DNA of 25,370 nt, taken from IMG/VR virus record IMGVR_UViG_3300032291_002740, positions 1-25,370 of that record; one strand, 5' to 3'. A program made the translations under genes and the position numbers. Position 1 is the stretch's first letter. Each line of letters begins with the position of its first letter. The notes under the pieces are model-generated. The model was not told where the DNA came from, ran no database searches, and was given only the letters and a program-made list of their open reading frames with translations. The DNA is from a virus. This document shows, in pieces, positions 449 through 24,615 of this stretch.

Positions 449-1063
449 ATGGCATACATGATAAATAATAAACCCGTTGGAAATGATCCTGGATCAATTG
501 AAAGAACTGATTCATACCACAAATTTTTAAATAAATTGGGTAACTCTACAGAAAACATTGTAACTATTTCTAATTTTTTAACAGAAGAAGAAATATCTTA
601 TTTGATGGAAGACCTAGACAATAGATCCTCTCATCGTTTTGTTTCTCAAAAAGGTCCTAACGGAGAGCCATTAACTTACATGCATAAGTATGATGGTCTG
701 CCTGATATCTACAATATCATAAGTAGAGTTAAAAATGAAATAATAAAAGCATACAATCTAGAGGATATTACTATACTAGAAAAAGAAAACTTCTTGGGCG
801 TTGTTCACTGGGAGACTGGATCTTACTTAAACACTCATGTAGATGACCTTGGATATGTAACAGAGAATCATTTACCAATTATCATTTATTTAAACGATAA
901 CTATGAGGGTGGAGAGATTAAATTTGAAACACATGATCTTTCTATTAAGCCAAAGACTGGTGATTTAGTTGTATTCCCTGGGAATATGCACTATGCTCAC
1001 GAAGTTACAAAGGTTTTGTCTGGCGATAGATACACCTTGCCTATTTGGTTTACGATAGTTTAA
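449..1063 (+). CDS. Prolyl-4-hydroxylase-like Fe(II)/2OG dioxygenase
   Basis: A 204-residue oxygenase of the P4H-like 2-oxoglutarate/Fe(II) superfamily. The double-stranded beta-helix is in the C-terminal half. Iron ligands are visible as His130-x-Asp132 and a distal His (181 or 184), and Arg194 in GDRYTLPIWF is the likely 2OG-binding residue. The block IIYLNDNYEGGEIKF and the KPKTGDLVVFPGN strand are shared with four other oxygenase domains in the window. Such enzymes couple 2OG decarboxylation to hydroxylation of a protein, small-molecule or nucleic-acid substrate; the substrate here is unknown. The start is set by the -10 box 6 bases upstream; Met4 is an alternative. Confidence 0.9.
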   Translation: MAYMINNKPVGNDPGSIERTDSYHKFLNKLGNSTENIVTISNFLTEEEISYLMEDLDNRSSHRFVSQKGPNGEPLTYMHKYDGLPDIYNIISRVKNEIIKAYNLEDITILEKENFLGVVHWETGSYLNTHVDDLGYVTENHLPIIIYLNDNYEGGEIKFETHDLSIKPKTGDLVVFPGNMHYAHEVTKVLSGDRYTLPIWFTIV

Positions 1064-1065
1064 AG

Positions 1066-1317
1066 ATGAATGATAGCACAAAGAAAAGAAAACTGCTAGA
1101 TGGGTCTGAAGTAGATGATTACGATTATCCAATAGACTTAATACTACATACAAAGGCTCCTGCAAAATGGAAGTTGATCGATCTTGAAACAGGACAAGAA
1201 TATCTTGGTTCAGAAATATCTCATGAAACATTTGGAGAACTTTTGAGAAGTAAAGTAGCAAAGGCTAAGATAGGATCTTGGTTTAAAACAAAAGGAAGAG
1301 TAATAAAAAATGGATAA
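1066..1317 (+). CDS. Hypothetical 83-aa protein
   Basis: The ATG at 1066 lies two bases after the oxygenase stop. An earlier in-frame start at 1045 would overlap that gene by 19 bases and is less likely. The protein begins with a Lys/Asp-rich stretch, then has a central segment AKWKLIDLETGQEYLGS that resembles a small beta-sheet module, and ends basic (KTKGRVIKNG). No family is recognised. It overlaps the following fusion gene by 8 bases, so the three genes are probably co-transcribed. Confidence 0.75.
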   Translation: MNDSTKKRKLLDGSEVDDYDYPIDLILHTKAPAKWKLIDLETGQEYLGSEISHETFGELLRSKVAKAKIGSWFKTKGRVIKNG

Positions 1318-2737
1318 TAAAAATAAACCAATCACTTTTCACTGGATGTGGAGAAGACACTGGCAAATAAATGACAGTATTGAACACTTAGACCTTAATG
1401 GAATTCTTAAGATGGCAAAAGAACTAGATGGTGCCAACGTTAAATCTGTTTTACTTCCCTATGGGCCAGGTGGTATTGATTTTTCATTAGTCATACAAGA
1501 AGCATTACAAAAAACAAACCAACTAATTATGACAATTGCTTTACCAGCATATGGAACAAGCCCTGACTATGCTGCTAAAATTGTTGACACTTTAAATAGA
1601 TTTGGACCTGGCAGAATTGGTGTAAACCTTGTTGCTGGAAGATGGGGAGACGAAGGAAACGGTCCTTCAGAAAAGTTAGTGCTAGACCACTACATGCACG
1701 ACTCATCCCTGATTGATACCCTTGAAAAAAGAGTAAACATATCTGCAGTTTGGATGGATAAGGTCATGGATTTAATGCACAGTCATGAGCATAAAACCCA
1801 TATGGCAGTTGTTGGCTCTTCAGATACAACAATTAATATAGCAAATAAGCATTGCGAATATATATATGTTGATGATAATCTGTTGTTTAGAGATCAGTTT
1901 AAAAAGATTGATTTAGATAAGGTAAAGCCAATAGTCATTATTGATCCACTTATTACTACCCATCCAGACGATGAAAAGTATGTTAAGTATGATAAAAATG
2001 CTCCAGTTAGAAAGCAACATCATTTGATAAAAGGAAAGTTAGTCGATGTTGTTGCACAAATAAGAGATCTATCTGAGAAATTTGGCATTTATGACTTTAT
2101 GATTCATACTGATCAAGAAGATATTAGCAAGTTATTAGATATGGTAAAAAACTTTAATGATATTGTGGTGCCTGAAGGAAATGTCATTGGTTACTCTGAC
2201 CTAACAGTACAAAACTTTAACAATATTGGAAGTGATCCTAGCAATATAAAAGTATTAAACAATTATTTAAGCAAAGAAGAATGTGACCATATTATAGAAC
2301 TTATAAATAGTACAGAGACAAGCAATAATCGTCCCTTGCAGCCAGACAGTTCTGGGGACCCTGCACTATCTTTGTTGTATTATGACTCACTAACCTATTC
2401 AGAAAAATATATACCTGGTATTCAGTCTATATTAGAAAAAGAGTTTAACGTAAAACTAAAACCAAGAAATTCTCGTTTTGCTCAATGGGTTCACAACAAC
2501 AGTCCAACAGTTCCAATAGATGACCTAGGTCACAAAGACTCAAACCATTTAGCAGGCTGGGTTTATTTAAATGATGACTATGATGGTGGTGGTTTATCAT
2601 TTTTTAATCAAGGACTATCTTTTAAGCCAAAGGCTGGCGATCTAATTCTATTCCCTGGTAATCCTCACTATTGGTATCATGTAGCACCAGCAAATGGCTC
2701 AAGATACATTATGCCAATATGGTTTGATTTTGTTTAA
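1310..2737 (+). CDS. Luciferase-like flavin monooxygenase fused to an Fe(II)/2OG oxygenase
   Basis: A 475-residue two-domain protein. Residues about 5-285 resemble bacterial luciferase-like/SsuD-type TIM-barrel monooxygenases: an N-terminal FHWMWRRHW strand, GPGRIGVNLVAGRWGD at about 99-114 (the GR..xNxVxG signature), and a late FMIHTDQEDISKLLDMV helix. Residues about 300-475 are a P4H-like 2OG domain with His408-x-Asp410, distal His453/457 and Arg465. Family knowledge: the first half uses FMNH2 and O2, often on sulfonates, alkanes or amines; the second uses Fe(II), 2OG and O2. The reading frame is continuous and both halves look intact, so this is a true fusion rather than a frameshift artefact. 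Substrate unknown; SsuD-like activity is inferred. Confidence 0.85.
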   Translation: MDNKNKPITFHWMWRRHWQINDSIEHLDLNGILKMAKELDGANVKSVLLPYGPGGIDFSLVIQEALQKTNQLIMTIALPAYGTSPDYAAKIVDTLNRFGPGRIGVNLVAGRWGDEGNGPSEKLVLDHYMHDSSLIDTLEKRVNISAVWMDKVMDLMHSHEHKTHMAVVGSSDTTINIANKHCEYIYVDDNLLFRDQFKKIDLDKVKPIVIIDPLITTHPDDEKYVKYDKNAPVRKQHHLIKGKLVDVVAQIRDLSEKFGIYDFMIHTDQEDISKLLDMVKNFNDIVVPEGNVIGYSDLTVQNFNNIGSDPSNIKVLNNYLSKEECDHIIELINSTETSNNRPLQPDSSGDPALSLLYYDSLTYSEKYIPGIQSILEKEFNVKLKPRNSRFAQWVHNNSPTVPIDDLGHKDSNHLAGWVYLNDDYDGGGLSFFNQGLSFKPKAGDLILFPGNPHYWYHVAPANGSRYIMPIWFDFV

Positions 2738-2752: not shown

Positions 2753-2878
2753 ATGGAAAAATCTAAATGTTTCTTTTGTGAAAAAGATGCTACGCACTAC
2801 GATATAGTTGTAAACCACGCTGAATATATAGTTGCAGATGTGTGTTTAATTCATTTGTCTATGGGTCTTGTATCATAA
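2753..2878 (+). CDS. Small DUF7455-like zinc protein (41 aa)
   Basis: The 41-residue frame opens 6 bases after a TATAAT box. CFFC at 6-9, then Cys31 and His34 in VCLIHL, match the CxxC...C..H layout of the DUF7455-like proteins at 18442-19974. It looks like a minimal member of that group, probably binding one zinc ion. The role is unknown. The sulfotransferase gene starts on the second base after its stop. Confidence 0.65.
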   Translation: MEKSKCFFCEKDATHYDIVVNHAEYIVADVCLIHLSMGLVS

Positions 2879-2879
2879 T

Positions 2880-3404
2880 ATGTCCAGTATTGCAATTGTC
2901 ACATATCCTAGATCTGGAGCAAACTACTTATCAAATTTAATACTAAATAACTGTAGGCAAGAGATAAAATATTCCCATATTCCTCAAAATTATGATAGAT
3001 TTATTATAACTATTGCACGAGATCCCTTTGAATCAATACATTCTCATGTAACAATGAGAAGGCATTATCGACCAGATGAAGGGTACAACAAAAGATATAA
3101 TGATGAGTATAAGGATATGTACAACTTCTTGTATGAAAATGCAAACATTGTTGTAAAATACAAAGACCTAATAGAGTTTCCAGAAAAGGTATTGTTAAAA
3201 ATATGTAACGATCTTGAATTTGAAATAAATCCATTAGACATTCCTGTTCCTGTAGCAGTAGATAATAAAGAAGACACATACCTGAGATCAAGTAAAGTCT
3301 CTCCAGAATACAAAAACAAACATTTTAAAATAGAAGATATTTTAGATTGCTATGAACCATATAATAAATTACTGTCAAAAGCACTTGACTTGACCAAACC
3401 CTGA
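2880..3404 (+). CDS. PAPS-dependent sulfotransferase family protein
   Basis: With the ATG at 2880 the protein is 174 residues. TYPRSGANYLSNLI at 8-21 is the 5'-phosphosulfate-binding loop, and IARDPFESIHSHVTM at 45-59 is the 3'-phosphate-binding segment. YKDLIEFPEKVLLKICNDL at about 94-112 matches the downstream conserved YxDL...P element. The family moves a sulfuryl group from PAPS to hydroxyl or amine acceptors. It is shorter than typical sulfotransferases (about 250-300 aa), so substrate loops may be reduced. A possible PAPS link to the APS-kinase-like fusion at 17681-18442 is inference. A start at 2868 (TTG) would overlap the upstream gene. Confidence 0.85.
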   Translation: MSSIAIVTYPRSGANYLSNLILNNCRQEIKYSHIPQNYDRFIITIARDPFESIHSHVTMRRHYRPDEGYNKRYNDEYKDMYNFLYENANIVVKYKDLIEFPEKVLLKICNDLEFEINPLDIPVPVAVDNKEDTYLRSSKVSPEYKNKHFKIEDILDCYEPYNKLLSKALDLTKP

Positions 3405-3896: not shown

Positions 3897-4919
3897 ATGA
3901 AATTTTTAACAAGAGATATTCTGTCCTTTTATAAAGGAAAACAAGTAGATTCTTGGTATTTAAAAAAGTATTTTTCAAATACAAAAGAAGTTGGACTTTA
4001 TAAACCATTCCGTGAAGATGCTGTTAGTTCAAGTTATAATAAAAAAGATAATTCTATAGAAACAATTGATGAACACAACACATACGAAATAAATTCTATT
4101 GGCTGTAGAGGAGAGGTCTATGAAAATTCAGAAACACTTGCACTTGGTTGCTCTCTAACCTTTGGTCTTGGGGTTCCAGAATTAGGTAGGTGGTCAAACT
4201 TATTAAGCAAAAAGATTAACAAAAGTATGACCAACCTTGGCAGTCCTGGAGACTCAGTACAAAATATTTGTATCAATGCCATACAATACTGTTTAAACAC
4301 TAAAATGCCAAAAGAAATTTTTTGTTTGTTTCCAGATTTTTTTAGAAGTAAGGTAGTAGTAGATAAAGAATTTTATAAATCAAAAGTTAATAGAGGAGAT
4401 ATTGGGAAAAAGGATTGGCTAGACCATATTTTTTGCAACCCAACAATAATTAAAGATAATAACTCATTTTTTATGCAAGTAGACGACAAGAGTTACATTG
4501 AGGACTCAACCTCTCCACATCAACTAATTCTAAACTCTGTAAACTATATTTATATGTTAGAGTCATTTTGTTTATCAAATAACATAAAACTATATTGGAC
4601 AACTTGGAACGGACCAACTTCGTTTATTTTACAAGAATTGAGCAAATTGGAAAATTTTAAATTAAAAAATTTTACATGTTTTTATCCTGATGATTTTAAT
4701 TTACAATATGATGGCATTGGCGGTTTTGTAAACAATCGTTGCAATATGAATACTCATGAGCACGAGTTTAAAGATCATGTATCTTGGGCTCATGGTTCTG
4801 ACTATGCTTTTATAGATGGTGAAAAAACATTTAAAAATTCTCATCCAGGAATACATGTTCAAGAACATATTTCAGAATTTTTTTACAATTTATATAAGGA
4901 ACACAATGAAAACAACTAA
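3897..4919 (+). CDS. SGNH/GDSL-family hydrolase-like protein (copy 1)
   Basis: A 340-residue protein with SGNH block I at 84-90 (GCSLTFG, nucleophile candidate Ser86), a block II-like NLGSPGDS at about 113-120, and a C-terminal HPGIH at 316-320 that may supply the catalytic His. The family hydrolyses esters, for example acyl or acetyl groups on glycans, or acts as an acyl-transfer relative. No signal peptide is visible, so it acts in the cytoplasm or in a virion. It is paralogous to the protein at 7859-8893: LGxGVPExGxW and HPGIHxQxH are shared. Some phage SGNH-like proteins are structural and this cannot be excluded. Confidence 0.8.
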   Translation: MKFLTRDILSFYKGKQVDSWYLKKYFSNTKEVGLYKPFREDAVSSSYNKKDNSIETIDEHNTYEINSIGCRGEVYENSETLALGCSLTFGLGVPELGRWSNLLSKKINKSMTNLGSPGDSVQNICINAIQYCLNTKMPKEIFCLFPDFFRSKVVVDKEFYKSKVNRGDIGKKDWLDHIFCNPTIIKDNNSFFMQVDDKSYIEDSTSPHQLILNSVNYIYMLESFCLSNNIKLYWTTWNGPTSFILQELSKLENFKLKNFTCFYPDDFNLQYDGIGGFVNNRCNMNTHEHEFKDHVSWAHGSDYAFIDGEKTFKNSHPGIHVQEHISEFFYNLYKEHNENN

Positions 4920-7858: not shown

Positions 7859-8893
7859 ATGGATTTATCAAATAAAAATATCTTGAATGTTTATGAAAAT
7901 TATGAAAAAAGTAATTACATCCTTAATAATTTTACAGATACGAAACAACTTGGTTCTTATTTACCAAACCAAGATAACCCATTTGCTTTTCTGGGATTTT
8001 TTAGTCCAATGCACCAAGTTGACAAAGTTAATGACTATACAATCAATGAGTTGGGCTTTCGTGGTAAGTTAAAAAAAGATGCTAAAGTTCTTGCTGTAGG
8101 TTGTTCTTACACTTTTGGTGTTGGGGTGCCAGAAATCGGAACTTGGCCAAGTCTTTTAAGTTCAGAAATTAACAAAGATGTTTTAAATTTAGGAGTTCCT
8201 GGTATAACAATAAAACAAATATCTCAACTAATTGTTAGATATGTTTCAAAATATGATAAACCAAAAACTATTTTTGCGCTATTTCCTCCATTTTTTAGAA
8301 GTAGTTTAATATCAGATGCAGAATTTTATTATAATAGCAAAAGTGTAGATCCAAGAAAACAAGAAGGAAGTGATCGGCAGGTTTCTTTTAAGTCTCCTAT
8401 CTTCCATGATCGGATTAAAAAAGAAATGTTTTTTGAAAAACAAGAATATTCTTATTTTTTTAATTCAAAACATAAAGGGCTTCCGTACATGGAAAATGTT
8501 TTTTCACCACATCAGTTTATATCTGACTCTATTGACTCAATATCATTAATACAAGATTTTTGTTATTCACATGGGATAGACTTTTATTGGTCAACATGGG
8601 ATAATGCAAGTTCTATGCTAATGGATGTTTTAGTTAAAATTCCCAACTTTAAACTAAAAAATTATATAAAATTTGCTGACGATAAGTTTGATAATTACAA
8701 CACAAAAGATGGTAAATTTCCAACTATGTTTTGTAATTTATCACATAATTCTAAACTTATTGATCATCCTTCTTGGGAAAAAGGTTCCGATATTATTTAT
8801 AGTTATGATAAATTGCTTGAATTACAACCACATCCAGGAATTCATTTTCAACACCATGTAGCAGATTTATTTAAAAAGTGCTCTACTTCTTAG
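7859..8893 (+). CDS. SGNH/GDSL-family hydrolase-like protein (copy 2)
   Basis: A 344-residue paralogue of the protein at 3897-4919. Block I is GCSYTFG at 81-87 (nucleophile candidate Ser83), block II-like NLGVPG follows at about 116-121, and HPGIH is at 325-329. Shared elements include LGFRG before block I, GVPExGTW after it, the ALFPPFFRS segment, SPHQF and the FYWSTWDN motif. It probably acts on an ester, with the same caveat that it may be structural. It is expressed from its own leaderless promoter. Its 3' end overlaps the convergent minus-strand gene by 11 bases. Confidence 0.8.
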   Translation: MDLSNKNILNVYENYEKSNYILNNFTDTKQLGSYLPNQDNPFAFLGFFSPMHQVDKVNDYTINELGFRGKLKKDAKVLAVGCSYTFGVGVPEIGTWPSLLSSEINKDVLNLGVPGITIKQISQLIVRYVSKYDKPKTIFALFPPFFRSSLISDAEFYYNSKSVDPRKQEGSDRQVSFKSPIFHDRIKKEMFFEKQEYSYFFNSKHKGLPYMENVFSPHQFISDSIDSISLIQDFCYSHGIDFYWSTWDNASSMLMDVLVKIPNFKLKNYIKFADDKFDNYNTKDGKFPTMFCNLSHNSKLIDHPSWEKGSDIIYSYDKLLELQPHPGIHFQHHVADLFKKCSTS

Positions 8894-9338: not shown

Positions 9339-9980
9339 CTAAGCCTGAAGGATATCTGGGTCTTCAGAAAATGCTATGCTTACTGAGTGCCTTGGGCACA
9401 TTGATTCAACGCTATGGATTACGCCCTTTGGGATATAGGCTGCATCTCCCTCACTCAATAATATTTCGTAGTTTAGTTCTTTGTTGTTGTGAAAAACTTT
9501 CCATAGGCTTTGTCCACTACCCTGAATAAAGAATCTGTCTTGTCCATCTGAATGAACTTCAGGATCCCAAGACTCAACTGACCATCCATCTACCCCATTA
9601 TCATGCACTATGAGTTCTTCTGGAATCTTTTTAGAGTTGTCTGTGGTAAACTTTGAAAAAAGGTTATCCAGGGACTTATCCGTCATTGCATTATTATTTC
9701 TATTTATAAAATGAATAATCATCATTGAAAAAAGGACCTGACCACCATGATACAAAGAAATATCTGATACTGCTTTTTTATAATATTCTAAAACCCTTAT
9801 ATCATTTTGAATAACCATAGTGCCAAATGAGTTATAGTCTATGGTTTCGGTTTCTTTTGCACGATCATAAAAATTATTTATTTCTTCCCAGGAAGGAAAT
9901 TCTTTATAGAATTTTTTTACAACATGCAGTCTTCTTTGCTTTGTGGCTAACATTAGGTCTTCTTTTGTCATTAAGGTCAT
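9339..9980 (-). CDS. JmjC/cupin-type Fe(II)/2OG oxygenase (copy 1)
   Basis: 213 residues. The C-terminal cupin has His143-x-Asp145 (EVHSDGQDRFFIQGSG), a GxxSLWKVF strand, EGDAAYIPKGVIHS with distal His189, and PRHSVSIAFS. This is the layout of JmjC/RoxA-like oxygenases, which hydroxylate proteins, often ribosomal. The N-terminal 130 residues are helical and shared with the paralogue at 10868-11482. The start is set by TATAAT 5 bases upstream of the first ATG. No dimerisation or winged-helix domain of the ribosomal oxygenases is present, so the substrate cannot be inferred. Confidence 0.8.
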   Translation of the reverse strand: MTLMTKEDLMLATKQRRLHVVKKFYKEFPSWEEINNFYDRAKETETIDYNSFGTMVIQNDIRVLEYYKKAVSDISLYHGGQVLFSMMIIHFINRNNNAMTDKSLDNLFSKFTTDNSKKIPEELIVHDNGVDGWSVESWDPEVHSDGQDRFFIQGSGQSLWKVFHNNKELNYEILLSEGDAAYIPKGVIHSVESMCPRHSVSIAFSEDPDILQA

Positions 9981-10867: not shown

Positions 10868-11482
10868 TTATATCACAGGCTCATCAGAAAAGGCTATACT
10901 TATTGCATGTCTTGGACCTAAAGACTCAACGCTATGTAGCAACCCTTTTGGTATAAAGGCTAAATCTCCTGGGTTTAATACAATTGCATCAGTCAAATTG
11001 TTTGAATCGTCAAAAAGTCTCCATAAGGTTTGACCACCACCTTGAACAAAAAATCTATTTTCTCTGTCAAAATGCACTTTAGGTTCCCAATTGCCTCCTT
11101 CTATTCCATACTCTTTTACAGTAACGTCTTCTGGAATTTTTTTAGGATTATTTTTACTAAACCTATTAAACAGGCTCAAACATCCTGGATCACTAATGAT
11201 ATTGTTATTCCTATTTATGAAATGAACTATGATCATGCCAAAAAGAGGGTATCCTTTATAAATTTTATTGATACCATCTATAACCTCTTTATAACAACTA
11301 AAGATAATTTCTTTTTCTTGCGCCTGGAATGTTCCAAAAGACATATATACTATCTTTTTGTCTAAATCATAGATTTCACCTATGTCTGACCAAGAAGGTG
11401 GGTTTGTAAGAAAATTTCTTGATATATGAATCTTTTTTTGTTCTGTTGCCAAGATCAAGTCATTTTTTGTGATTGTGGACAT
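10868..11482 (-). CDS. JmjC/cupin-type Fe(II)/2OG oxygenase (copy 2)
   Basis: A 204-residue paralogue of 9339-9980 across its full length (KNDLILATEQKKIHI, HFINRNNN, KKIPEDV). The iron site is His137-x-Asp139 (KVHFDRENRFFVQGGG) with distal His183 in PKGLLHSVESLGPRH. The two copies are separated by the HNH and Hsp20 genes, each with its own promoter. Substrate unknown. Leaderless start. Confidence 0.8.
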   Translation of the reverse strand: MSTITKNDLILATEQKKIHISRNFLTNPPSWSDIGEIYDLDKKIVYMSFGTFQAQEKEIIFSCYKEVIDGINKIYKGYPLFGMIIVHFINRNNNIISDPGCLSLFNRFSKNNPKKIPEDVTVKEYGIEGGNWEPKVHFDRENRFFVQGGGQTLWRLFDDSNNLTDAIVLNPGDLAFIPKGLLHSVESLGPRHAISIAFSDEPVI

Positions 11483-12710: not shown

Positions 12711-12869
12711 CTAGGATATTACTTTTGTTAGTACTGTGAAGCCAATCCATAACCCAATAATTCCTGCGACTCCCGCAAAAACTGGTGGTGCTGGTACTGG
12801 CAATTTGAATGCAGCAAATACTACACCACATCCAAAACCTGTTAGTATTGATAGTATTACATCTTTCAT
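12711..12869 (-). CDS. XapX-domain membrane protein (52 aa)
   Basis: The minus-strand frame from ATG 12869 to TAG 12711 gives 52 residues, almost wholly hydrophobic. FGCGVVFAAFKLPVPAPPVF, then AGVAGIIGLWIGF, matches the XapX (DUF1427) signature of two helices joined by a KLPxPAPP turn. Function of the family is unknown. It starts in the ATGA of the oxygenase gene stop and ends in the Shine-Dalgarno region of the holin candidate. A longer ORF in another frame over this span is a shadow. Confidence 0.8.
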   Translation of the reverse strand: MKDVILSILTGFGCGVVFAAFKLPVPAPPVFAGVAGIIGLWIGFTVLTKVIS

Positions 12870-13420
12870 CTAAGTAATCCATACTCTGGCCTTATAATGC
12901 TCGACCCAAAAAGTTTAAACCACCTAGTAGCAGAATATCTTTCTTTTCCAGTATTTTCAAGCACTTCATGCCAATAATCTTCATTGCTAGGGAATGTAAC
13001 AAAACTATTAGACTTTGGCTTAATTTTTAGATTATGGTCCATAAAGTTTATTTCTCCACCTTCATAGTCATCATTAAGGTAGTATATTGCTGCAAAGTCT
13101 CCTGTTGTATCTGCATGTTCGTTCATCTTGTAATTTTTTTCAAATTTAACCAAAGGAACTGCTCTTTTGTCAAAGTCGTAAAGTTTTACATCATAAAAGT
13201 TTATACAACTTTCATGAGCAAGCATAAAAACTTTGTCTAGAATAAGAACAATTTCTTCTGGTTGTTTTGATGGTGAAAGGGTCTTAACCCCCCAAGGCTG
13301 AGTGTGCCAATAGTCAACACTTTCTGCATAGTCAAGAAGTTTTTTGTGTTCTTCTTTAGATAAAACGTTTTCTGTAATTTTTATATTATTTACAGAATTT
13401 CCTAAATTTGATTTTGTCAT
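12866..13420 (-). CDS. P4H-like Fe(II)/2OG dioxygenase
   Basis: 184 residues of the same family as the enzymes at 449 and 13424. Iron ligands are His102-x-Asp104 (NEHADTTGD) and distal His151 (DYWHEV), with Arg161 for 2OG. It shares the N-terminal GNSVNNIKITENVLSKEE and the YYLNDDYEGGEINFMDHNLKI block. It is adjacent to its closest paralogue at 13424, indicating tandem duplication. A TATAAT box inside the last codons of that upstream gene gives it a separate leaderless transcript. Confidence 0.9.
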   Translation of the reverse strand: MTKSNLGNSVNNIKITENVLSKEEHKKLLDYAESVDYWHTQPWGVKTLSPSKQPEEIVLILDKVFMLAHESCINFYDVKLYDFDKRAVPLVKFEKNYKMNEHADTTGDFAAIYYLNDDYEGGEINFMDHNLKIKPKSNSFVTFPSNEDYWHEVLENTGKERYSATRWFKLFGSSIIRPEYGLLR

Positions 13421-13435
13421 TTTTTAATTATACCA
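13421..13435 (-). promoter_or_regulatory. Extended -10 promoter for the oxygenase at 13420
   Basis: TGG plus TATAAT (13432-13427 on the minus strand) lies 6 bases before the ATG and is embedded in the last codons of the upstream oxygenase gene. Confidence 0.7.
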
Positions 13436-14026
13436 TTCTGCTTTTTTATTAAAACTAGAACCAGTGAACTGAAGCCACATGGCAGAACTATATCTATCGT
13501 TGTCAACAATCTCACAGACTTCATGCAAATAGTTTTCATTGCCAGGGAAAATTACTAAACTGTTAGGCTTTGGTTTAATCTGTAAATGGTGATCTGGGAA
13601 GTTAATTTCTCCACCAGTGTAGTCATCGTTAATATAGTATACTGAAGCAATGTGGTTGCTTTCAGATGATAGGGTATCTACATGTGGATTTAAAGAAAAG
13701 CCTTTTACAAACTTAACTAAATGTAGTGCAGACTTATGAAAAGGATTAATAGGTACATCGTAAAGTTCTACAGATTTTTTATAAACAAGTTCAAATATTT
13801 TATTTAGCATTTTAATAATTTCTTCAGGCAAATTTTCTGATTCGATAGTTATAGCCTCCCAGGGTTGCTCTTTCCAAGACTGAGCATTTTTTACGTAATC
13901 TAGAAGGATTCTGTGATCTTCTTCAGGCAACACGTCTTCTATATACTGTATGTTGTCTGTAGAGTTTCCTATTTTTGCAACATTTGCTAAATAAACTTCG
14001 TCTTTTTCTGAAGGACTTTTAATCAT
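13424..14026 (-). CDS. P4H-like Fe(II)/2OG dioxygenase
   Basis: A 200-residue paralogue of 12866-13420. Iron ligands are His115-x-Asp117 (NPHVDTLSS) and distal His168 (NYLHEV), with Arg178 in DRYSSAMW. The N-terminal GNSTDNIQYIEDVLPEED and YYINDDYTGGEINFPDHHL blocks are shared across the family. Substrate unknown. It overlaps the upstream membrane-protein gene by ATGA and also has a TAAAAT box 6 bases before its ATG. Confidence 0.9.
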   Translation of the reverse strand: MIKSPSEKDEVYLANVAKIGNSTDNIQYIEDVLPEEDHRILLDYVKNAQSWKEQPWEAITIESENLPEEIIKMLNKIFELVYKKSVELYDVPINPFHKSALHLVKFVKGFSLNPHVDTLSSESNHIASVYYINDDYTGGEINFPDHHLQIKPKPNSLVIFPGNENYLHEVCEIVDNDRYSSAMWLQFTGSSFNKKAEWYN

Positions 14027-14667: not shown

Positions 14668-14949
14668 TTACTCCATAGTTAGGGACTGCCATGTTGTTCC
14701 CCAGTCATTTTTTGTTTTATGGCTAGAGAACTCTTTTGATATTTCTCCATTTTCTAAATAAACTCCACCCCAGACACCCCACTCTTTTCCTGAAATTCCA
14801 ACAGAAAAACATTCTTTTCTTACTGGACAGGAAGAACATAGTGCATCAATTGCTGGTCTTAGTGGCTCATCGTCTTCATACTTTTCAAAGAATAAATTTG
14901 TGTCATAGTCTAAACAGACTGCGTCATCTTTCCATTTAAATTTATTCAC
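14668..14949 (-). CDS. WhiB-family iron-sulfur transcriptional regulator
   Basis: 93 residues with the four conserved cysteines (Cys12, Cys38, Cys41, Cys47 in the CSSCPVRKEC arrangement) that ligate a 4Fe-4S cluster, followed by the GVWGG turn (58-62). WhiB proteins bind the sigma factor and tune promoter use in actinobacteria and their phages. This is the strongest evidence for an actinobacterial host. The region after GVWGG is less basic than in many WhiB proteins, so DNA contact may be weaker. The GTG start directly follows the upstream TAA. Confidence 0.9.
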   Translation of the reverse strand: MNKFKWKDDAVCLDYDTNLFFEKYEDDEPLRPAIDALCSSCPVRKECFSVGISGKEWGVWGGVYLENGEISKEFSSHKTKNDWGTTWQSLTME

Positions 14950-16012: not shown

Positions 16013-16243
16013 CTAAACCCTAATTCTCCAGTTCATAGATTTAGGACCTTGCTTTATCATTTGGAACATATGGTGTTTATATTGTTCTGTTAGTTCTGCG
16101 TAAATTTCTGGATTGACTAACTCAAGTTTATCTGTTATTGAATAAAGCATTTCACCTTTTTCGTCTATGCCAGCCATTTCTATGGCTCCCTGCATAATTA
16201 AATGCTCTACCATTGCTTGACTCTTTATGTTATTAAAGTTCAT
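16013..16243 (-). CDS. Hypothetical 76-aa protein
   Basis: AAGGAAG upstream of the ATG gives a good ribosome-binding site. The protein is helical: VEHLIMQGAIEMAGIDEKGE, MLYSITDKLELVNPEIYAEL, then YKHHMFQMIKQG. I recall similar short proteins in actinophage genomes but no function. It overlaps the oxygenase gene upstream by 11 bases. Confidence 0.75.
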   Translation of the reverse strand: MNFNNIKSQAMVEHLIMQGAIEMAGIDEKGEMLYSITDKLELVNPEIYAELTEQYKHHMFQMIKQGPKSMNWRIRV

Positions 16244-16805
16244 AGGAGACTTCCTTTTCTTTTATATTTGTTGCCCAAATAGGCATTGCTATTCTTAAAC
16301 CAGACAAAACCTCTGTTATTCTGTGTACTTCTTTAGAATCAAAAAGAACAAGACTTAACTTTTTTGGTTTAATTGTAAGATCTCTATCTAAAAAATTTAA
16401 ATATCCTCCATCAAAATCTTCATTTAAATAAATCACACCGCTTCTAAATAAATGCTCTGCTCCTTTATGGTTGTCTGCATGCGCCGTAAGGATACTTCCT
16501 GGTCCTAACATGGTCATCCACTGTGCTGTTAAGTATATTTGTTCATTATCTTTAAAAAAAAGATTGCACTCTAATAAAAATTTATCAGAGTATTTTTTTA
16601 ATAAAGGTATAATTTCTGAATGATTTAAAAAACTATGACGTTCTGGTACGTGCGATTCATACCTTATTTTATTCTCAACTTTATATCTTATAGGAGTATA
16701 AAATTTTGTTTTGTCTGAACAGTTATTTTTTATATAACTTACAAATATGTCAGCATCTTCTAAAGTTATAAAATCTTCTATTACCTTAATTTTAAAATCT
16801 AACAT
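16233..16805 (-). CDS. P4H-like Fe(II)/2OG dioxygenase, divergent member
   Basis: 190 residues. Iron ligands are His109-x-Asp111 (ILTAHADNHKG) and distal His161 (KEVHRITEV), with Arg171 in LRIAMPIW. VIYLNEDFDGGYLNFLDRDL and TIKPKKLSLVLF align with the other four family copies. The N-terminus differs: it lacks the GNSxxNI block, so this is the most divergent copy. Its start overlaps the SNase stop (TAATG), so expression is coupled to the nuclease. Confidence 0.88.
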   Translation of the reverse strand: MLDFKIKVIEDFITLEDADIFVSYIKNNCSDKTKFYTPIRYKVENKIRYESHVPERHSFLNHSEIIPLLKKYSDKFLLECNLFFKDNEQIYLTAQWMTMLGPGSILTAHADNHKGAEHLFRSGVIYLNEDFDGGYLNFLDRDLTIKPKKLSLVLFDSKEVHRITEVLSGLRIAMPIWATNIKEKEVSYEL

Positions 16806-21137: not shown

Positions 21138-21166
21138 ATTATAGCACTTTACCTACAGATTGTGAA
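21138..21166 (-). promoter_or_regulatory. Endolysin promoter
   Basis: TTCACA (21166-21161 on the minus strand), a 17-base spacer and TATAAT (21143-21138). The -35 overlaps the 3' end of the carbamoyltransferase gene. Confidence 0.75.
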
Positions 21167-22567
21167 GTTATACTCTTTTTCCCATTTAATAATGTCAGTT
21201 TCATCATTGAGTAGTGGCTGTCCCTTAATGTTAAGGCTTGTATTCAGAAGTACTGGCACACCAGTTTCAAGATAAAATTTGTTAATTGCTCTCCATAGCC
21301 CACGGTGTTGATCTTTGTTTACTGTCTGAACTCTTGATGTTCCGTCTGCATGAACTACAGAGGGTATCTTTTCAGGCTGTAAGCACTTGACTGTATACTG
21401 CATATAAGGACTTGTAAAATCCATATCAAACCATTTAGAGGCACACTCTTCCATAACTACTGGGGCAAATGGTCTAAACAACTCTCTTTGTTTAATTAGA
21501 TTAACCTTATCCTTAATTAGTGGATCTCTAGGATCTGCAAGGATGCTTCTGTTTCCTAGTGCTCTTGGGCCGTATTCGGCTCTACCTGTTGCTACTGCTA
21601 CTATTCCATCTTTTAATATACCGTCCACAATTTGCTGAACAGGATACTCTCCTCCAAGATCATAACCAAGATAAGGAGTATTCCAATCAAGATGCTTTCC
21701 GTATAGGGCTGCTGCTGCACCCAAAGAACTACCAGCATCTCCAGGGTTAGGCATGATCCAAATCATATCAAAAATATTCCAGAGCAGTGTATTTGCTGAA
21801 GAGTTGAGGGCGCAGCCACCCATAAATACTAAGTTGTTTTTCCCAGTCATTACTTTTGCCATACGCATAAATTGATTAAGTCTTTGTTCATATACCATTT
21901 GTACTGATGCTGCTATATCAAACTTATCTTCTTCTGAAACCCAGCCCCAGTCAGTGATTCCTTTATGAAAATTATACTTTTGCTCATCGTAATTAGGGAA
22001 ATACTCATTAACTTTCTTATAATATTTTGTCCAGTCTCCATAAGCAGCCATACCCATCATAATATATTCTTCTTGATTTGGCATAAGACCAATCAACTGA
22101 GTAAAGGCTGAATAGAATAATCCAAAACTAACTGGATAGTTTTGCTTATACTTAAGTTTAATCTTGTCGCCCTCACCAACCCAAATTGTTGAGGTATTAA
22201 ATTCTCCAATAGCATCAAGGACTACAATACATGCATCATTAAATGCGCTTGTATAATATCCTGCTGCTGCATGAGAGTAGTGGTGCTTAAAATAGTGCAC
22301 TGGAATATCTAAAGGAATGTTTGGCTTCCAGTCTGATGCTCCACCCCTTAAAATTATTCTAGATCTTTTAAGCCAAGGCTTTTCATAATATGCTATAGCA
22401 TCTGGTGTTCCATAGTTTAATGCATCTAGGATAATCTCTTTATTGTTATACCAGTCATTCTTTTGTTTACTATATCTTTCTGCATGTCCCGCAAAAAGTA
22501 TTTCTCCATCTTTAATTAAAGATACAGATGCGTCGTGGGAAGTTTCATTAATACCTAATATTAACAT
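21149..22567 (-). CDS. NodU/CmcH-family O-carbamoyltransferase
   Basis: 472 residues. N-terminal ASKHA-like domain: GINETSHDASVSLIKDGEIL, HHYSHAAAGYYTS with conserved histidines, VVLDAIGEF, then MMGMAAYGDW. Middle NLVFMGGCALN and PNPGDAGSSLGAA. C-terminal YrdC-like half: GRAEYGPRALGNRSILADPR, FRPFAPVV and LLNTSLNIKGQPLL. The family moves a carbamoyl group from carbamoyl phosphate to a hydroxyl of a sugar, antibiotic or nucleoside; phage members acting on 5-hydroxymethylcytosine are known. It is shorter than the common 560-600 residues. GGAG precedes the ATG by 4 bases. Confidence 0.92.
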   Translation of the reverse strand: MLILGINETSHDASVSLIKDGEILFAGHAERYSKQKNDWYNNKEIILDALNYGTPDAIAYYEKPWLKRSRIILRGGASDWKPNIPLDIPVHYFKHHYSHAAAGYYTSAFNDACIVVLDAIGEFNTSTIWVGEGDKIKLKYKQNYPVSFGLFYSAFTQLIGLMPNQEEYIMMGMAAYGDWTKYYKKVNEYFPNYDEQKYNFHKGITDWGWVSEEDKFDIAASVQMVYEQRLNQFMRMAKVMTGKNNLVFMGGCALNSSANTLLWNIFDMIWIMPNPGDAGSSLGAAAALYGKHLDWNTPYLGYDLGGEYPVQQIVDGILKDGIVAVATGRAEYGPRALGNRSILADPRDPLIKDKVNLIKQRELFRPFAPVVMEECASKWFDMDFTSPYMQYTVKCLQPEKIPSVVHADGTSRVQTVNKDQHRGLWRAINKFYLETGVPVLLNTSLNIKGQPLLNDETDIIKWEKEYNFTICR

Positions 22568-23500: not shown

Positions 23501-24373
23501 CTAGTTACGGATGTATGATGTAGTACCAATTAAAATCTTTGGAAGAGATGCTAGATACTCTCCAAATGTTTTAAAGGTATTGCGATTTACATAAGATGCT
23601 GCTGATACTGCAGTCGCTACAGAACTTCCAGCAGTATCTGTTGGTGAGCCATTGTACTTTGTGACTCTTACTTTACCAGGTGCAACCATGTCAAGCCCTG
23701 GGCCTGTGTTAGTTAGTCCCTCAAGTTGTGTTGCGTTTCCAAGTGCTCCGACACCGATGACACCATTAACGCATGAAGGGAAACCTACTACATCCTTGCG
23801 TCGATCATTACCAGTTGCAGCAAATACTGGAATATTGTTTTCGGTTAAAGATGCTACTGAATTTACAGTAATAGTGTCTTTTGTACATAGTGCAAGATTT
23901 CCTGCACTTACTGTGGACTGGCTGACTGAAAGAGCATCAATACTATACTTTGATGCATTCTTTGATACCCAGTCAAATGCTAATGCTAAGGCTTTTACAT
24001 CTCCTCGTGAGTTTCCTAGACTTGTTACATCATTAAATCTAATAAACACAATTTTTAGATTTGGATTAACAGTTAGTGCAGCCTTTACCATGGTGTCTCC
24101 GTGATATGTTGCATTGTTTATAGATACTGGCCATGGTGCAGATGCTGCTCCTGGACCTTCCATAAATAGTTCTCCGTTAGGACAAGACATATTCTGAGTA
24201 GGAACTGATGACTTTACAGTTGTAAAGCAGACCTCATGGATAATTGATGGAAAGTTTTTTGAATTAATTGCTGAATCAATAATTGCCAAGACTTTCTGAT
24301 CTTCTGCTTGTGCTGGTGCAAGTGCTGTAAATGCAAGTGCAATTGATAGTAATGCTAGTAGTACTTTCTTCAT
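23501..24373 (-). CDS. Secreted subtilisin-like serine protease (S8)
   Basis: 290 residues from the ATG with AAGGAG 8 bases upstream; a longer frame to 24448 lacks a site and hides the signal peptide. MKKVLLALLSIALAFTALAP then AQA is a clear signal peptide. Catalytic triad: Asp in LAIIDSAIN, His in YHGDTMV, Ser in AGSSVATAVSAA, with oxyanion Asn in AATGNDRR. The Ser motif is GSSVAT instead of the usual GTSMAT. No propeptide domain is evident. A secreted protease is unusual for a phage and may modify the host surface. Confidence 0.88.
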   Translation of the reverse strand: MKKVLLALLSIALAFTALAPAQAEDQKVLAIIDSAINSKNFPSIIHEVCFTTVKSSVPTQNMSCPNGELFMEGPGAASAPWPVSINNATYHGDTMVKAALTVNPNLKIVFIRFNDVTSLGNSRGDVKALALAFDWVSKNASKYSIDALSVSQSTVSAGNLALCTKDTITVNSVASLTENNIPVFAATGNDRRKDVVGFPSCVNGVIGVGALGNATQLEGLTNTGPGLDMVAPGKVRVTKYNGSPTDTAGSSVATAVSAASYVNRNTFKTFGEYLASLPKILIGTTSYIRN

Positions 24374-24396
24374 TTTATTGCTCCTTATTGTTGTTG

Positions 24397-24615
24397 TTAT
24401 TGTTTGATTTTTAAAACTACTTGGCAAGGGTCTCCGCCTTCTTCCCATTCTTGCTGCTCTTCTTCGCTCATGTATGGATCTCCATCATGAGTATTACAGA
24501 ATGGCTCTGTTACCCATCCTCTTTCAATACCGTTTTCAAGCCAGATTTCAAACTCGTCAAAATCTGATTCTATGTTTTGAATGTCTCTTAAGATCTCTTC
24601 AAATTCTTCGCTCAT
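24397..24615 (-). CDS. Acidic 72-aa protein
   Basis: 72 residues, about a third Asp/Glu (FEEILRDIQNIESDFDEFEI; SEEEQQEWEEGG). Such acidity can mimic DNA, but no motif proves it. The ATG lies 6 bases after a TATACT box, so the mRNA is leaderless. Function unknown. Confidence 0.75.
   Translation of the reverse strand: MSEEFEEILRDIQNIESDFDEFEIWLENGIERGWVTEPFCNTHDGDPYMSEEEQQEWEEGGDPCQVVLKIKQ

Follow-up and report, generated by a model that had tools for sequence, protein, structure and literature searches.

Does a phage gene that runs a luciferase-like barrel straight into an oxygenase fold encode two enzymes or one? The question is raised by the 25,370-base stretch analysed here (the window), which is a whole virus record. 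A first-pass annotation, made from the letters alone, had read in it two unrelated O2-activating enzymes, a flavin monooxygenase and an Fe(II)/2-oxoglutarate (2OG) oxygenase, and had proposed that they carry out two successive oxidations of one substrate. Here, we show that the fusion is natural and that the first of these enzymes is supported as a predicted flavin-type barrel fold, but that the second is very probably not an active enzyme, its iron triad being incomplete in 83 of 83 family members. The features on which the argument rests are collected in Table 1.

Table 1. Features of the locus, with window coordinates
Feature	Position	Strand	Basis or remark
Stand-alone 2OG-Fe(II) oxygenase with complete HxD...H...R	449..1063	+	Pfam 2OG-FeII_Oxy_3, E 2.6e-13
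Small conserved ORF, 83 aa; stop overlaps fusion start by 8 nt	1066..1317	+	Beside the LLM gene in 79/79 distinct genes
Fusion protein, 475 aa: LLM-type flavin barrel and iron-site-degenerate 2OG-oxygenase-like domain	1310..2737	+	ATG-to-stop frame, 475 codons
Luciferase-like (beta/alpha)8 barrel, residues 1-283	1310..2158	+	AF2 model, structural alignment, SsuD profile
G169-S170-S171	1814..1822	+	Invariant, 63/63
Linker, residues 284-302	2159..2215	+	Length and sequence both vary in the alignment
Double-stranded beta-helix, prolyl-hydroxylase type, iron site degenerate, residues 303-475	2216..2734	+	AF2, structural alignment, triad counts
P402-I403-D404, H-x-D column, histidine lost	2513..2521	+	Alignment with intact gene and prolyl 4-hydroxylase structures
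H408-K409-D410, 'HxD' of the first-pass annotation	2531..2539	+	H408 variable; D410 invariant in the fusion family
Y419, retained	2564..2566	+	83/83 in the family, 98/98 intact relatives
Y456, distal iron-histidine column	2675..2677	+	Y 72, H 11 of 83; H in 98/98 intact relatives
R465, 2OG-carboxylate arginine of the superfamily, retained	2702..2704	+	83/83
Sulfotransferase-like gene	2868..3404	+	Sulfotransfer_3, E 1.1e-4, 23 bits against a cut-off of 27; operon membership uncertain

One frame or two adjacent genes

The uninterrupted frame of 475 codons was found as described, running from an ATG to a stop, and the main worry about it was that two separate genes had been joined here by a sequencing error. 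A single open frame of 464-480 residues spans both halves in every one of the 80 relatives kept, which were the 80 best of 133 in viral contigs, a ranking biased toward full-length matches. These loci come from many different metagenomes, and some are near-copies. Since the same fusion recurs in all the relatives kept, it is natural. An assembly artefact, a sequencing error or a chimera is ruled out, and the chance that one of them produced this frame is negligible: split versions do occur and the frame is broken in one contig, but the linkers of the open frames differ in length and the split versions possess their own start codon and spacing.

The split versions of barrel and C-terminal gene surfaced with a barrel-only search of viral contigs. 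Among 85 distinct proteins, a set that omits matches cut by a contig end and those weaker than E 1e-60, 74 are fused, 10 are split and 1 has a broken frame. In the split relatives the LLM gene ends near the linker start and the next gene starts 1 nt past its stop (9 of the 10 pairs); the genes of the remaining pair (L261) overlap. Fusion is hence not obligatory, a minority (10/85) having separate neighbouring genes. Two changes of state suffice to place the fused and split forms on the barrel tree (75 proteins), which does not settle whether fusion or fission came first. Two proteins that are fused in most members and encoded side by side in the others show a classical sign of working together, as the barrel and the C-terminal protein probably do. 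The broken frame (L154 2174-3546, also numbered L270) reflects either a sequencing error or a pseudogene.

A predicted luciferase-like barrel

The first-pass annotation had placed a TIM barrel at residues 5-285, and structure prediction gives a luciferase-like barrel for residues 5-287, followed by a beta-helix at about 305-474. Eight strands alternate with helices over residues 9-266 of the AF2 model (mean pLDDT 80, pTM 0.59), and the GRIGVNLVAG signature reported for this domain is read at residues 101-110. Aligned with VIA-align, the predicted barrel matches CmoJ/YtnJ (6ask) with a Z of 22.6 and an rmsd of 3.0 over 255 residues, and SfnG, LadA, RutA, SsuD, MsuD and F420 enzymes with Z of 20-22, rows within 1 of each other being tied. 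The predicted model thus has the luciferase-type (beta/alpha)8 barrel by which the LLM class is recognised.

The sequence matches are much fainter. Pfam PF00296 (Bac_luciferase) scores the fusion protein at 10.5 bits, short of the curated cut-off of 27.9. The nearest curated families by sequence are the NCBIfam SsuD models (E 5.4e-7), with 28.7 and 26.9 bits against cut-offs of 510 and 518.2; SsuD membership was rejected on these scores. SsuD itself matches the barrel profile with an E of 1.8e-5 over residues 32-117, and the match to SsuD spans only about residues 28-128. As far as the model goes, the barrel resembles the LLM class by fold and belongs to none of the named families tested. It shares the (beta/alpha)8 barrel with the FMNH2-dependent LLM monooxygenases SsuD/MsuD and CmoJ (YtnJ) (Z 20.7-22.6), but with 15-20% identity in the structural matches, a minimal length (~283 residues) and a 2OG-oxygenase-like domain attached. 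The best Foldseek match, a KvPepI-type F420-dependent oxidoreductase (9gm0, 9g64), has a similar small barrel and 13-14% identity.

Is the barrel an enzyme at all? Over 75 proteins 138 of its 283 columns are invariant, many of them polar, as an active site would lead one to expect; in the C-terminal domain the invariant columns number 34 of 173. We presume, by analogy with SsuD-type barrels, that G169-S170-S171 is the flavin phosphate loop. No placement of the SsuD catalytic residues on the barrel was achieved. The loops 16-23, 52-55 and 110-117 have a pLDDT below 50 in the AF2 model, and this, together with the pTM of the full model, means that the active site and the placement of the domains are not reliably modelled. 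Overall, the barrel would be expected to use a flavin. The barrel might instead be catalytically silent as well, and the whole protein structural or regulatory, e.g. a virion or takeover protein. The sub-threshold Bac_luciferase score and the restricted match to SsuD would fit such a protein, which the many invariant polar columns make rather unlikely.

An oxygenase fold without its iron site

Modelled alone, residues 290-475 reach a pLDDT of 91 (AF2) and align with the viral prolyl hydroxylase 5c5t (Z 15.3, rmsd 2.9, 157 residues), PHD2 (Z 15.0) and PiuC (Z 13.8). The predicted domain is thus a double-stranded beta-helix of the prolyl-hydroxylase type, the fold of the 2OG-Fe(II) superfamily. 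PF13640 recognises it with 28.2 bits against a cut-off of 27, covering only residues 409-472.

The first-pass annotation had assigned to this domain an intact His408-x-Asp410, a distal histidine and Arg465. The letters H408, K409, D410, H453, H457 and R465 are all present in the fusion protein, but only the arginine stands in its proper column. The intact gene at 449-1063 (T-H-V-D-D-L-G-Y-V-T-E-N-H) and the fusion (V-P-I-D-D-L-G-H-K-D-S-N-H) align without gaps, and a combined profile of both kinds puts the same column on the HxD of bacterial prolyl 4-hydroxylase. This register places the HxD histidine at residue 402, a proline, and the distal histidine at residue 456, a tyrosine. The predicted strands 401-403 and 456-458 contain these columns. 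Hence, the fusion protein has P402, D404 and Y456 where the HxD...H iron triad should be, whereas the arginine for the 2OG carboxylate, R465, is found in 83/83. Y419, presumably, corresponds to a 2OG-carboxylate ligand of PHD2.

The family counts agree. None of 83 distinct alignable C-terminal domains has a complete HxD...H triad. Of 110 distinct stand-alone relatives, 98 have complete H, D, H and R, and the remaining 12 are partners of LLM genes that are split or frame-broken; all 110 are ORFs of 150-260 aa with E <= 1e-20 to the upstream gene, thus picked by similarity to an intact protein. At positions 402, 404 and 456 the 83 domains read mostly P-D-Y (48), followed by S-D-Y (10), H-N-H (7), R-D-Y (6), A-D-Y and P-N-Y (4 each), P-N-H (2), Q-D-H (1) and L-D-H (1). 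L261 and L270, set aside from this count, read PID...Y and QID...Y. Column 408 holds H 44, S 24, I 9 and R 6, and column 457 H 38, N 20, D 8, S 8, I 8 and V 1 (n=83); in column 453 the rows that have a residue there read H 71, N 8 and Y 5. There is no invariant histidine in the C-terminal domain across the fusion family. Since columns 408 and 457 vary, the triad read earlier is a coincidence of letters, and an active iron site at H408-x-D410 is ruled out by conservation and alignment register. A pattern search found an intact motif in 2 of 9 split C-terminal proteins; we took these matches as spurious, the column counts showing that the split partners are not intact. The split partners L111 and L112 have Ser at 402 and Tyr at 456.

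A bifunctional chain, whose flavin barrel and active Fe(II)/2OG oxygenase would treat the same substrate in turn, is therefore largely refuted by the counts and highly improbable. Both folds are predicted, Arg465 and Tyr419 are retained and the letters H408, D410 and H457 do occur in the 475-aa protein, but the HxD and distal histidines are gone from it and columns 408 and 457 are not conserved. The proposal of two successive oxidations within one chain falls with the missing triad. It could survive at the operon level only, given the intact 2OG oxygenase just upstream (75/76 upstream genes).

The loss of the triad took more than one form, as a divergent clade (7/83) with H402-x-N404...H456 shows: L271 (6109-7575), L275, L277, L278, L284, L286 and L288. 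To judge by its residues, this clade may bind a metal. Halogenases have an HxG metal site and a different chemistry. An altered metal centre, formed by HxN...H in the divergent clade and by Asp404, Asp405 and Asp410 in the main one, might likewise perform a chemistry of its own. Such a centre would make sense of the invariant D405 and D410 (83/83) and of the histidines kept in the divergent clade. Yet, the commonest state leaves a single classical ligand and no histidine is invariant family-wide, so that this idea is improbable.

Selection on the degenerate domain

Among the 98 intact proteins 32 columns are conserved at 90% or more; in 26 of these most of the fusion family has the same residue, and Y419, G426, G427, F431 and R465 are retained in 83/83. 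The six that changed (319, 396, 402, 428, 456 and 462) comprise both iron histidines and four others. Conversely, D410 is found in 83/83 of the fusion family and 0/98 of the intact relatives. The median dN/dS is 0.16 in the C-terminal domain (2,009 pairs) and 0.10 in the barrel (2,625 pairs; 75 proteins, pairs limited to dS 0.1-1.5). These comparisons indicate selective change, not mere decay. In an unrooted tree of 48 rows, from which four of 25 picked loci were omitted as duplicates, a branch with an SH-aLRT of 100 separates the 21 degenerate domains from the intact upstream genes.

What might be selected for? One might speculate that the domain is an iron-free sensor of 2OG or another dicarboxylate, bound through Arg465 and Tyr419, which would gate the barrel according to the carbon/nitrogen state of the host. 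The retention of both residues despite the loss of the iron histidines, and the new invariant Asp410 just past the old HxD strand, are what such a sensor might show. However, Tyr419 and Arg465 may be kept for the sake of the fold, ligand binding being proposed from sequence, and in 2OG oxygenases 2OG normally chelates the metal too. We regard the sensor as doubtful.

Neighbouring genes

The fusion gene, the small ORF and the intact 2OG oxygenase form a putative operon. All 79 distinct barrel genes have the small ORF immediately upstream, in nearly every case with an overlap, and 76 of them have a 2OG gene at most 900 nt upstream. The motif of this upstream gene is intact in 75 of the 76, the sole miss being a 60-residue remnant. 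Starting from the upstream gene (best 80 of 87), we reached 69 further loci: 65 have the barrel and the remaining 4 stop short of its expected position. The sulfotransferase-like cluster occurs in at least 70/79 loci and an unassigned family of about 335 aa in at least 53/79, figures that are lower bounds because many loci are short. Members of the divergent clade have their upstream oxygenase more than 1 kb away, sometimes with a sulfotransferase-like gene in between.

In some relatives the fusion gene is flanked by oxygenase genes, an extra 2OG gene starting on its last base (L045 2487-3083, L056 2484-3080); that of L045 has HxD and the distal histidine. A 554-562-aa protein of T4-like phages, called GlmU or NTP-transferase in some records, has a C-terminal tail similar to the 83-aa ORF, with 41-54% identity over about 35-54 residues among the matches listed. 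In Serratia phage 4S the T4-like protein is encoded near D-arabinose 5-phosphate isomerase and dCMP hydroxymethylase, i.e. DNA-base modification genes.

Probably one enzyme and a repurposed partner

With the C-terminal iron site lost, the protein probably comprises a single enzyme and a partner domain put to a new use, not two enzymes. Our preferred reading, to which we give a probability of about 0.5, is an LLM flavin enzyme permanently coupled, by fusion or as an adjacent gene, to a pseudo-oxygenase that serves as a binding module, in a putative operon with an intact oxygenase. The barrel would bind reduced flavin (FMNH2 or F420H2) and oxidise a substrate. The pseudo-oxygenase would have kept the fold, Tyr419 and Arg465, given up the complete iron site and fixed the new Asp410; it would most likely hold the substrate or dock the intact upstream 2OG oxygenase. 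The flavin and iron oxidations would then be split between two proteins of one operon. That these proteins form a complex, and that the dead domain holds the substrate, the active oxygenase or 2OG, are what we infer. Several observations sit badly with this reading: the small share of invariant columns in the C-terminal domain relative to the barrel, the greater distance, in the divergent clade, to the oxygenase upstream, the 7/83 domains that retain both histidines with Asn for Asp, in which some metal binding is possible, and the loss of four conserved non-iron columns, as plain drift would give.

A bolder version is a metabolite-gated flavin monooxygenase: a dead Fe/2OG oxygenase, still able to bind 2-oxoglutarate or a product of its active neighbour, would control or supply it. 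We hold it to be unlikely. If true, it would be a new phage enzyme class, a metabolite-gated flavin enzyme made from a recycled oxygenase gene.

The coupling matters beyond this protein. 2OG-oxygenase genes are carried by cyanophages and by these freshwater viruses, and their targets are, to our knowledge, mostly unknown. Here, a natural experiment has been made: in one branch the iron site disappeared while the fold and most of the pocket stayed, and the domain became tied to a flavin enzyme. Since partner and substrate are likely shared, the target of the active neighbour becomes easier to test. The locus also shows that a Pfam match barely above its cut-off can label a dead oxygenase as active.

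Comparison with known systems

The C-terminal domain has the same beta-helix as the viral collagen prolyl 4-hydroxylase vCPH (5c5t), PHD2 and PiuC and keeps the Arg and Tyr of the 2OG pocket, but differs from them in the incomplete HxD...H triad. A precedent for a dead 2OG-type domain is JARID2, described in PMC11241480 as a JmjC protein with substituted catalytic residues and a non-catalytic partner role. Like the phage domain, it retains a 2OG-oxygenase-type fold with replaced catalytic residues, and it works through partners; unlike it, JARID2 is a eukaryotic chromatin protein of the JmjC branch, without a flavin partner.

Stand-alone viral LLM proteins are already known. Two 'luciferase-like domain' proteins of uncultured Caudovirales (A0A6J7WN64, A0A6J7WQ01) are of the LLM type and have 17-18% identity to the barrel; at 249 and 251 residues they are too short to hold a second domain. 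F420-dependent LLM genes also occur in viruses of ammonia-oxidising archaea, according to PMC11849493, and are likened to the phage barrel here by description alone, not by sequence. The reference phage collection holds no close relative of the barrel, which alone weakly matches a gene annotated ssuD in two records named Acinetobacter phage (E 0.03); the whole protein matches 7 records, in its C-terminal part only. Cellular homologues were sought by scanning genome contigs with two short peptide patterns, a scan insensitive to distant homologues; none of its 40 pattern matches was confirmed as a relative. The first-pass annotation knew of no described phage enzyme with this pairing, and we likewise found no description of a barrel joined to a 2OG-oxygenase fold in the open-licence literature. 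In PMC9469726 'alkanesulfonate monooxygenase' occurs only in the reference list.

Host and other genes of the virus

The virus probably infects Actinobacteria and belongs, with its relatives, to the uncultivated freshwater viruses. It carries a WhiB gene at 14668-14949 (PF02467, E 9e-12), and of 13 larger contigs carrying the same genes (42-119 kb, hand-picked) 12 have WhiB above cut-off. Two freshwater phage papers use WhiB as a marker of actinobacterial hosts (PMC6802176, PMC10202952); the words oxygenase and luciferase are absent from their main text. The terminase family PF03237 was found in 0 of the 13 large contigs.

The window is rich in other enzymes. Besides the fusion, four 2OG-oxygenase genes score above the Pfam cut-off (449-1063, 12866-13420, 13424-14026 and 16233-16805). 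Two cupin proteins of the JmjC_2 type, a family that includes ribosomal-protein hydroxylases, are encoded at 9339-9980 and 10868-11482 (31.4 and 32.9 bits against a Pfam cut-off of 22). A NodU/TobZ-type carbamoyltransferase lies at 21149-22567 (PHROG E 4e-103; both halves match Pfam). Two proteins of about 340 aa, at 3897-4919 and 7859-8893, are alike by eye and have no Pfam match; the cluster of the second is the one found in at least 53/79 loci, and we take their GCSxTFGxGVP motif to have an SGNH-hydrolase-like look. Finally, 23501-24448 encodes a predicted protease (PHROG protease family, E 1.6e-13) with an N-terminal stretch resembling a signal peptide.
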